35,890 nucleotides of DNA, taken from positions 1 to 35,890 of the forward strand of contig JAFOWX010000060.1 of the NCBI GenBank assembly GCA_017391905.1. The letters run 5' to 3'. Each line of letters opens with the position of its first letter. The stretch's first letter is position 1. Below are positions 838 to 34,423 of the stretch, in pieces. Source of the stretch: Paludibacteraceae bacterium (lineage in GTDB: Bacteria; Bacteroidota; Bacteroidia; Bacteroidales; Paludibacteraceae). The position numbers and the translations under genes were made by a program. The notes under the pieces are model-generated. The model was not told the DNA's origin, did not search any database, and worked only from the letters and a program-made list of their open reading frames with translations.

Positions 838-1367
838 GTTCAATCTTACAAAACCGCAGGTTTCGCCAATTAGAGAATGGAGAAACAGTTAAATCGTTCA
901 ACTGCGGAGATACTGAGTTGAACGATTTTATTTTAAAGCATGCAGATGATTACAGAAAATCATTATTATCAGTATCATACATCTTTGAAGAAGAAGATAC
1001 ACTACTAGCCTATTTTACTTTATCCAATGATAGTTTACGGCACGAAAGTTTCAACAACAAATCATCATTTAACAGACTTAATAGGAATATAAATAATGCT
1101 AAGCGTATGCGTGAATATCCTGCCATGAAAATAGGCAGATTTGCTATAAGCATAGAATATAAAAACAAAGGAATAGGTAAATCTATATTAAACCTTATAA
1201 AAAAGACCTTGATAGAAGACTACCCATCTGGTTGCCGATTTATTACTGTGGATGCCTATAACAATGCAATAGAATTTTATCAGAAAAATGGGTTTGTTAT
1301 GGTAAATGATTTTAACCCAGAAAGGCGAACCCAACCCATGTTTTTTGATTTAGCTCAACTACTATAA
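834..1367 (+). CDS. GNAT family N-acetyltransferase, resembling TacT-type toxins
   Basis: This 177-residue protein has the GNAT fold signature. Residues 24-31 (CGDTELND) match the N-terminal motif typical of TacT-like acetyltransferases. The acetyl-CoA loop KNKGIGKS lies at about 110-117 after the strand KIGRFAISIEY. A late VDAYNNAIEFYQKNGF segment supplies the Tyr of the F-Y-x-x-x-G-F motif (Tyr149), which is the catalytic position in TacT, and a PMFFDL strand ends the fold. TacT-type toxins acetylate the amino group of charged tRNAs and stop translation; ordinary GNATs of this size acetylate proteins or small molecules. The start overlaps the stop of the 57-residue upstream gene by four bases. 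The fold is secure; the toxin role is a context inference. Confidence 0.82.
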   Translation: MSSILQNRRFRQLENGETVKSFNCGDTELNDFILKHADDYRKSLLSVSYIFEEEDTLLAYFTLSNDSLRHESFNNKSSFNRLNRNINNAKRMREYPAMKIGRFAISIEYKNKGIGKSILNLIKKTLIEDYPSGCRFITVDAYNNAIEFYQKNGFVMVNDFNPERRTQPMFFDLAQLL

Positions 1368-1611: not shown

Positions 1612-1692
1612 ACCCGCGGAGCAGGTTAAACCTCATTGTAGGCAGCCCTTAAGGCGATGCGGTCCCTGAGCCTGATTACCCGCGCAGCGGGT
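1612..1692. repeat. REP-like palindromic cluster
   Basis: Two related units, each with ATTACCCGCG followed by an AGGTT or GGGTT arm, flank the 14-mer CGGTCCCTGAGCCT (1660-1673). The second unit forms ACCCGC-GCA-GCGGGT at 1678-1692. The 14-mer recurs as its reverse complement at 22441-22454 inside the barrel gene, and its 10-base core TCCCTGAGCC recurs at 23364-23373. This points to a dispersed palindromic repeat family. Confidence 0.6.
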
Positions 1693-1766
1693 TACACTTG
1701 ATAATAGGCAGGTCTTAAACAAGCAAAGCGCAGCGCAAGGCCTGTACAAAACGCAACATAACAACC

Positions 1767-21595: not shown

Positions 21596-23359
21596 ATGAA
21601 ACAACGCATTATTATAGGTTTGTTGTGCTGTGCGGTGGCAAGTAGCCTGTGGGCTACCAACGAGGTAAACCGCGATGTTACTGTAGAGCGTGATTACAAC
21701 CCCACCATACAACAAGTACCCAAACAGGTGCTTACGCCCCAAAAAGAAGATTTGAAACCCGAGCCATTGCCGGTAACTTACAGCTCGTGGACACAACCAG
21801 AAGAGGTATCGCCCCAGCCAACCATGCAAAAAGCGGCCGATGCGGCGCTACAACGCAGTTACGATTACAAAAAAGGCACAGCCAAAGTGGGTTTTGGTTT
21901 TTACTTGCAAACTTTGGCGGAGTTTTACTATCCGCTGTTGCAAGGCGATAAATACTTGTTGGACATCAATGCCAACCACTTTTCTAACTGGAGCAAAATT
22001 AACTTGCCCGATGGTACGTCGCCACGTGGCATGAGCAACTATACAGACGTGGCGCTTAATTACGAGCACCAATTTACAGACATGCGCTTAAACATGAAGG
22101 CGGGTTATGCCTACACCGGTTACGACTATTACGGCATGAGCACCGAGCCTGTAACGCCTTTTTACAAGGATACGGTGGGTAGAAACTCGGCGGTAGAGGT
22201 GGAAGCTAAGTTGTTTTCTACCAATACCAAACAGTCTGCACAGTTTGAGGTGGGCTTGGATTATTTGTATTTTGGCCGAAATTTTGGCGTGTCGATGCAC
22301 GAAATTGGCGTGGACGCTGATGTGAGCGGTGTCGTGGGCAATGGCCGCTTGGGTGGGGCTGTGAAGTTGGATGTACACGTGTTGGGTATGGAGCATGGTG
22401 AGGCTATGGGTGCTAAGCCTGCCTCTTCGGGCCCTTCGGGAGGCTCAGGGACCGAAGAGGCAGAGGGCTCTGATCACAGCCCCACCCATACGGCTGGTAT
22501 TTTAACGCTTAATCCGTACTACGCTTTTGGAGGCGAAGACTGGGGCGTTAAAATAGGGGCAAACATGTTTGCCCACATTGCCCGCGACAGCGTTAATTGG
22601 CCCGTTAGCGGTTCGGCAAACATTACCTCGCACTTTGGCATTGTACCCGAACTGTTTTACCTATACGCCAACTTGGGTGGTAGCTATAGCAGCAACGACT
22701 ACTTTAGCATTATTCGTGAAAACAAATACATTACCCCAAACTTGGTGGTAGAACCTACCTACACCCCCATAGACATAGACTTGGGCTTAAAGGTTCGCAT
22801 TATGCAAGGCTTATTGTTCGACGTGCATTTTGACTACGAGCTTATGCTAAACCAATACTACTACGTAAATCACGTGGTAGAAACCTTTGACGAGGATGCA
22901 CAGGTAATGAAACCTGCCTACTATACCAATACCTTTGACGTGGTGTACGACCCCACCTCGCACCGTGTAAGTGCCGGAGCCGGTTTGCACTTTGATTACG
23001 TAAAAGGGCTAAACCTTTCGGCCTCTGTTGCCTATAACTATTGGACCACCAGCCAACAAGCATACGCTTGGCAAAAACCTTCGTGGGAAATCAATTTTAA
23101 AGGTACTTACCAATTTTTGGAAAAATGGGAAGTGGGCGTTTCTTACGCTTACTTAGCCGGCAGAATGGCTTTGGTACAAGGCGAAGCGGTACGAATGAAC
23201 GATTTGCACGATGTTAATCTGTGGGCTTCTTACCAAGCGTTAGACTGGCTAAGTGTATTTGTGGAGGGCAAAAACTTGGCTAACATAGAGAGTGACGTGT
23301 ATTACGGCTACGAAAGTTTTGGCATCAATGCCATGGCGGGTGTAACCTTTCGTTTTTAA
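21596..23359 (+). CDS. Outer-membrane beta-barrel protein (TonB-receptor-like)
   Basis: The 587-residue protein has a signal peptide ending SSLWA. A short conserved-looking periplasmic stretch follows (VNRDVTVERDYNPTIQQVPK), then a Pro-rich linker, then alternating amphipathic strands typical of a barrel (FGFYLQTLAEFYYPLL, MRLNMKAGYAYTGYDYYG, AQFEVGLDYLYFGRNFGV, LNLSASVAYNYW, WEVGVSYAYLAGRMAL). It ends in a hydrophobic Phe-terminated strand, INAMAGVTFRF, the outer-membrane insertion signal. No plug domain or TonB box is evident. A Gly/Ser/Glu-rich segment at about 276-291 (ASSGPSGGSGTEEAEG) comes from a palindromic repeat inserted in frame, probably in an extracellular loop. It is coupled to the TPR gene upstream. 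Transport or structural role is unknown. Confidence 0.82.
   Translation: MKQRIIIGLLCCAVASSLWATNEVNRDVTVERDYNPTIQQVPKQVLTPQKEDLKPEPLPVTYSSWTQPEEVSPQPTMQKAADAALQRSYDYKKGTAKVGFGFYLQTLAEFYYPLLQGDKYLLDINANHFSNWSKINLPDGTSPRGMSNYTDVALNYEHQFTDMRLNMKAGYAYTGYDYYGMSTEPVTPFYKDTVGRNSAVEVEAKLFSTNTKQSAQFEVGLDYLYFGRNFGVSMHEIGVDADVSGVVGNGRLGGAVKLDVHVLGMEHGEAMGAKPASSGPSGGSGTEEAEGSDHSPTHTAGILTLNPYYAFGGEDWGVKIGANMFAHIARDSVNWPVSGSANITSHFGIVPELFYLYANLGGSYSSNDYFSIIRENKYITPNLVVEPTYTPIDIDLGLKVRIMQGLLFDVHFDYELMLNQYYYVNHVVETFDEDAQVMKPAYYTNTFDVVYDPTSHRVSAGAGLHFDYVKGLNLSASVAYNYWTTSQQAYAWQKPSWEINFKGTYQFLEKWEVGVSYAYLAGRMALVQGEAVRMNDLHDVNLWASYQALDWLSVFVEGKNLANIESDVYYGYESFGINAMAGVTFRF
22421..22461. repeat. Palindromic repeat element inserted in frame in the barrel gene
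   Basis: The 15-base arms GCCTCTTCGGGCCCT (22421-22435) and AGGGACCGAAGAGGC (22447-22461) are inverted with one mismatch around an 11-base loop. The right half contains AGGCTCAGGGACCG, the reverse complement of the 14-mer at 1660-1673. The element starts exactly on a codon boundary (codon 276) and adds a disordered Gly/Ser/Glu stretch. Confidence 0.82.
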
Positions 23360-23396
23360 AAGCTCCCTGAGCCCGCAATAATGTAAAACCGACGTC

Positions 23397-34383: not shown

Positions 34384-34423
34384 AATCACCCTTGCTTCTG
34401 TGTTGGAGCAAGGGTGATTTTTT
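34384..34423 (+). terminator. Terminator after rseP (near-copy at 35294)
   Basis: A perfect 13-bp stem, AATCACCCTTGCT (34384-34396) with AGCAAGGGTGATT (34407-34419), has a 10-base loop and six T. A near-copy lies at 35294-35336, after higBA. Confidence 0.95.

Follow-up and report, generated by a model that had tools for sequence, protein, structure and literature searches.

A dispersed hairpin repeat lying in frame in a probable outer-membrane protein gene of a Paludibacteraceae bacterium

The window analysed here is a whole stretch of 35,890 nucleotides from a Paludibacteraceae bacterium (contig C45 of a 1.61-Mb genome in 149 contigs, hereafter G000), for which the nearest publicly named relative found is a Paludibacteraceae metagenome-assembled genome from yak rectum. 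Its feature of interest is a palindrome at 22421-22461, inside a gene for a probable outer-membrane beta-barrel protein (Table 1). No Pfam match was found for this 587-aa protein, and its structure as predicted from the single sequence was unusable (predicted local distance difference test score, pLDDT, of 30). An earlier note had described an inverted repeat with 15-base arms starting on a codon boundary. The repeat is real and beyond chance: a search for inverted repeats with 15-nt arms gave 3 places in the window, where dinucleotide shuffles averaged 0.05 hits and 1 of 40 shuffles gave any hit at all. Its arms are 17 nt, however, 94% complementary and spaced by 11 nt, and the claimed codon boundary depends on where the arms are cut, since the 31-nt unit within it starts at codon position 3. 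Inside the barrel open reading frame (ORF) the repeat corresponds to residues 276-289 (ASSGPSGGSGTEEA), and as RNA it folds with -31.2 kcal/mol (z = -2.9).

Table 1. Positions of the barrel gene, the palindromic element and other repeats in the window
Feature	Position	Strand	Description
Host gene	21596..23359	+	587 aa; signal peptide, alternating strands and C-terminal Phe; probable outer-membrane beta-barrel protein
Complete inverted repeat	22419..22463	.	17-nt arms, 22419-22435 / 22447-22463
31-nt palindromic element	22426..22456	+	TTCGGGCCCTTCGGGAGGCTCAGGGACCGAA; 2 differences from consensus TTCGGGCCCTTCGACAGGCTCAGGGACCGAA; read as ..S SGPSGGSGTE
Half copy of element, core GGCTCAGGGACCG	1660..1672	-	Between genes; joined to another repeat, ACCCGCGCAGCGGGTTA
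Remnant of a further copy	23361..23373	-	Immediately 3' of the barrel stop codon
ACCCGCG.AGCRGGTTA-type palindromes	1613-1700		Two adjacent intergenic copies, one joined to the element half copy
Inverted repeat with 15-nt arms	889-930		AAATCGTTCAAC..GTTGAACGATTT, within ORF 834-1367; no relation to the element family
Hairpin followed by T's	34384-34419		AATCACCCTTGCT..AGCAAGGGTGATT; likely transcription terminator

The window palindrome holds one member of a dispersed hairpin family, TTCGGGCMCTTCGACARGCTCAGKGACCGAA, whose consensus is TTCGGGC(C/A)CTTCGACA(A/G)GCTCAG(G/T)GACCGAA. Both changes of the window copy from this consensus are in the loop (ACA to GGA). The 13-nt core of the element has 38 matches genome-wide at no more than 1 mismatch, against 0 for the reversed control; the note's statement that it recurs in a non-coding repeat at 1660 is borne out by an exact match on the opposite strand, though this is a half copy only. 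When the family pattern CGACARGCTCAGNGACC was searched with at most 1 mismatch and with the reversed pattern as control, 51 copies were found in G000 and 148, 53, 34 and 12 in its sister species G149, G096, G153 and G123, respectively. No copy occurs in the remaining 11 genomes of the genus, and the reversed control gave 0 in every genome. At the place in G149 orthologous to the remnant behind the barrel stop codon there is a full copy.

The copies have in common an 11-nt loop, TCGACARGCTC, and a stem that varies by compensation: 87% of the cells are paired, and 55 double changes were counted against 22.3 +- 3.3 in shuffles, none of 500 shuffles reaching as high. Pairing outside the core (positions 8-12 outward) is also above that of the shuffles, giving stems of up to 19 bp that are not alike at different loci. 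The GCCTC/GAGGC outer arms in the window are one such locus-dependent extension, being specific to the barrel locus and lying outside the dispersed repeat unit. About half of the copies have the short loop; in the others the same arms enclose 24-25 or about 69-70 nt. More widely, the loop TTCGACARGCTCAG occurs sporadically across Bacteroidota (58 of 392 genomes), again with varying stems; in one genome with 202 loop copies these were mostly intergenic inverted pairs in the stretches read. Among the viral contigs searched an exact match occurs in one contig, with no sign that phages spread the element. It may also be noted that a second palindromic repeat of varying stem (CGGCATAATCAA..TTGCTTCTGC) often holds the element in its loop (L013, L094, L171 and many other loci of the clade; L-numbers denote loci) and is itself found inside long-loop forms of the element, so that the palindromes are nested. 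Loosely repeated word runs (CACCGAATCACCGATTAGTCGATT...) flank many copies and are also seen within ORFs (L026, L061, L118 and other clade loci).

A homologue of the barrel gene was found in 191 of the 200 family genomes searched. In G149, whose barrel is 69% identical, the same loop carries GCATCT-TCGGTCCCTGAGCTTGTCGAAGGGCCCGAA-GAA, an exact reverse complement of the consensus, and in G153 it carries a reversed medium-loop form with its left end partly doubled. In G096 and G123, as in every more distant protein compared, the barrel loop is 20-29 residues shorter and lacks the element peptide. At this site the element is open in the same phase both ways, as SSGPS..GSGTE or SSVPELVEGPE. The note would have abandoned its reading had distant orthologues carried the same peptide with unrelated codons; what G149 and G153 carry is the same DNA inverted. 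It also asked whether residues of about 272-295 form a clean insertion: the extra loop is indeed absent from distant orthologues, but of its 20-29 residues the element supplies about 11. The loops of G000, G149 and G153 have also gained residues not derived from the element, so the insertion cannot be called clean.

The note also proposed a search for further copies inside other genes, and these are plentiful. Of 213 copies, 40 lie in frame within genes supported as real by a Pfam match or an orthologue, and besides the barrel gene about 25 genes hold the element in frame, enzymes of DNA repair and of the cell wall among them. These in-gene counts are lower bounds, as the survey took in all listed G000 copies, most G149 copies and a sample of the rest. 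Among the hosts are LeuA-LeuC, DNA polymerase I (PolA, three copies), ABC-F, DXS, PriA, DsbD, MutL, UvrB, ThiC, MurF, IspG, RnfC, N-acetylmuramoyl-L-alanine amidase, a glycosyltransferase and ATP synthase gamma (AtpG). Weaker hosts are L088, without a family, and L136, L125 and L015, with marginal families; in L002, L008 and L112 the element is close to an end of the host. The majority of inserts fall between domains. LeuA and LeuC form one ORF of 977-998 aa in G000 (L001:3-2942), G096 (L232) and G149 (L233), and are separate genes in G123, G064 and G082; the linker between them is the element in its medium form in G000 and in its short form in G096, while in G149 it appears to be another simple repeat. 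Different forms also occupy the same site in ABC-F (short in G153, long in G149) and in DsbD (short and medium, G000 / G149). As judged from the reading frames, the in-gene element becomes protein sequence, with predicted peptides that are hydrophilic and rich in Ser/Gly/Thr/Pro/Glu (SGPSTSSGTE in one orientation and SVPELVEGPE in the other; SVPEPVDVLLTDR is a further predicted peptide).

The position of these copies with respect to codons is strongly biased. At 29 of 34 independent in-gene sites one and the same codon phase is used, where 15.7 would be expected from the phases open in each sequence (P about 5e-6). The medium forms come in two lengths that are 1 nt apart. The length that keeps the frame of the short form is found 11 times in ORFs and 2 times outside, whereas the length shorter by 1 nt is found 0 times in ORFs and 12 times outside (hypergeometric P about 2e-5). 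This table counts L028 and L157 by length and includes L088, the ORF without family support; an earlier, smaller table gave 9:0 against 0:9 (P = 4e-5).

Taken as a whole, the window feature is very probably an in-gene copy of a non-autonomous, hairpin-forming repeat, similar in size and structure to repetitive extragenic palindromic (REP) sequences, that has spread in one clade of Paludibacteraceae. The element would insert both between genes and inside them, and the in-gene survivors would be those copies that preserve the frame through their length class and phase, with the added peptides sitting in linkers or loops that tolerate them; purifying selection is the probable cause of the phase bias. 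The barrel gene would have received its copy in the ancestor of G000, G149 and G153, with at least one later inversion or replacement of the inner part at the same site. The element was probably moved in the form of a single-stranded hairpin by a trans-acting enzyme, with a likely preference for the centres of palindromes. The element is often seen in the middle of a palindrome, for example AATCAATGC[element]GCATTG at L171 of G096 compared with AATCAAAGTAAACTTTG at L094 of G149, and such a location would account for the arm extensions seen at single loci. Three shared sites (the barrel, L096/L159 and L018/L127) hold the element in opposite orientations in different species, which suggests either that the interior was inverted or replaced, or that the same palindromic spots were hit repeatedly.

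Several points weigh against this interpretation. The assemblies are fragmented bins, 78-91% complete; no clean empty sites were obtained at the DNA level, which would give the exact length of the insertion; and the peptides are predictions from the reading frames. Also, no cognate transposase was found for the family, and Y1 transposase genes are present in 14 of 14 copy-rich as against 17 of 18 copy-free Bacteroidota genomes. A REP-associated tyrosine transposase (RAYT) was rejected as the mobiliser: Y1 presence does not follow copy number, G000 yielded no Y1 transposase, and in G149 and G153 nothing exceeded the cut-off, these genomes being incomplete. The Y1 transposase of G123 is of the subclass 1.2 type without element copies nearby and was likewise rejected. 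A RAYT-like gene in G096 (L257, C66; NF047646 at 50 bits, the cut-off being 80) looked promising, with a single element copy lying about 60 bp upstream of it, but both of its flanks are a different, GTAG-tagged palindrome (GTAGGGACGCAC..GTGCGTCC), and it too was set aside. A copy of the GTAG-tagged palindrome seems to lie in frame inside this RAYT-like gene itself (THEPCVPT), and in G123 (L260) only a C-terminal fragment of a RAYT-like gene is seen. Separately, G387 (L201/L214) and G435 (L202/L213), from different families, have near-identical stretches beside a Y1 transposase with same-loop hairpins, and these stretches may be a mobile unit.

Other explanations of the palindrome were weighed against the same data. 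An ordinary low-complexity loop that is palindromic by accident would agree with a barrel loop that is variable, Ser/Gly rich and different in length among orthologues, yet 31 nt of it match a genome-wide family absent from the reversed-pattern controls and the same DNA is found inverted in sister species, by which this explanation is refuted. An assembly or binning artefact at repeats is very improbable: the genomes are fragmented bins and the G153 contig ends within about 20 nt of the element, but the same in-frame sites recur in separately assembled species (barrel, LeuA-LeuC, DsbD, ABC-F), the window copy is in the middle of its contig, and the element is far shorter than a typical read. 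It is also improbable that the hairpin is retained in genes for its RNA structure (pausing or mRNA stability) with the peptide as a by-product. The strong covarying stem and the mostly intergenic location of the copies, some of which adjoin terminators, speak for such a role, but it sits poorly with the strong bias of phase and length class in genes, the occurrence there of both orientations and the divergence of the window copy in the loop.

It is harder to dispose of the idea that copies in genes behave as cassettes open to inversion or exchange, in which the arms flip the inner part or swap it with other copies, so that the encoded loop (SGPSTSSGTE / SVPELVEGPE / long forms) would change inside a single species. 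The loop form does differ at LeuA-LeuC, DsbD and ABC-F, and every state is in frame. However, the differences are seen between species only, orientation is constant at several shared sites, no recombinase or within-population variant was observed, and repeated independent insertion into one palindromic hot spot would look identical; we consider such switching unlikely. We hold as doubtful the broader proposal that the palindromes in genes are in-frame cassettes with an interior inverted or swapped in place (short/medium/long), which would diversify the loops and linkers of many proteins and help to join leuA and leuC, the coding-compatible long form being distinct from the intergenic one.

The preferred reading, a REP-like repeat that has entered genes, can be compared with known systems, of which Rickettsia palindromic elements and intragenic REPs come nearest in behaviour. 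The likeness to Rickettsia palindromic elements (RPEs) proposed in the note holds, in that copies occur in unrelated conserved genes with a preferred codon phase. Like RPE-1 and its relatives and the coding palindromes of Wolbachia, the element is dispersed, lies in frame in many unrelated conserved genes as well as outside genes and is tolerated by the protein (PMC2229807), and it is absent from orthologues. RPE-1 is 105-146 bp as compared with 31 nt for the present element, or 55 or about 100 nt in its longer-loop forms (PMC2229807). The element further differs from RPEs in sequence and phylum, and in having a constant loop, a covarying stem and a strong preference for one phase in both orientations. 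Sequence and length set it apart from RPE-1, the shorter RPE-4 and RPE-6 consensuses being outside this comparison. Intragenic REPs of the GTAG/CGTC superfamily, which is defined by a tetranucleotide at one foot of the stem, are known from O. terrae and R. conorii, with uvrB and DNA polymerase I among the hosts (PMC3733652). The present family resembles them as small hairpins that are mostly intergenic with some in genes, including repair genes (PMC3733652), and in that its copies are short hairpins whose stems vary in a complementary manner. Unlike them, it has neither a GTAG or CGTC terminal tag nor the loops of those families, and no tyrosine transposase was found flanked by it. With the RAYT/REP systems of Bacteroidetes (TnpAREP subclass 2.6, PMC6006769) it shares the phylum and the many hairpin copies, but the sole RAYT-like gene found in the clade, that of G096, is flanked by the other palindrome, and no REPtron (a TnpAREP gene flanked by copies of the repeat) was seen in the genomes searched, which are incomplete. 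No published full text was found to contain the loop sequence, and the open-access literature yielded no account of such coding palindromes from Bacteroidota, subscription papers being mostly beyond the search.

The known cases of repeats recruited into proteins come mainly from Rickettsia and a few other bacteria, and are often put down to genome decay. In the gut Bacteroidota studied here, four or five sister species together show the same outcome, produced by an unrelated hairpin, and filled, empty, inverted and re-formed states stand side by side in orthologous genes. These coexisting states can be used to test how such insertions originate, which frames survive, and whether new linkers and gene fusions are built by them.
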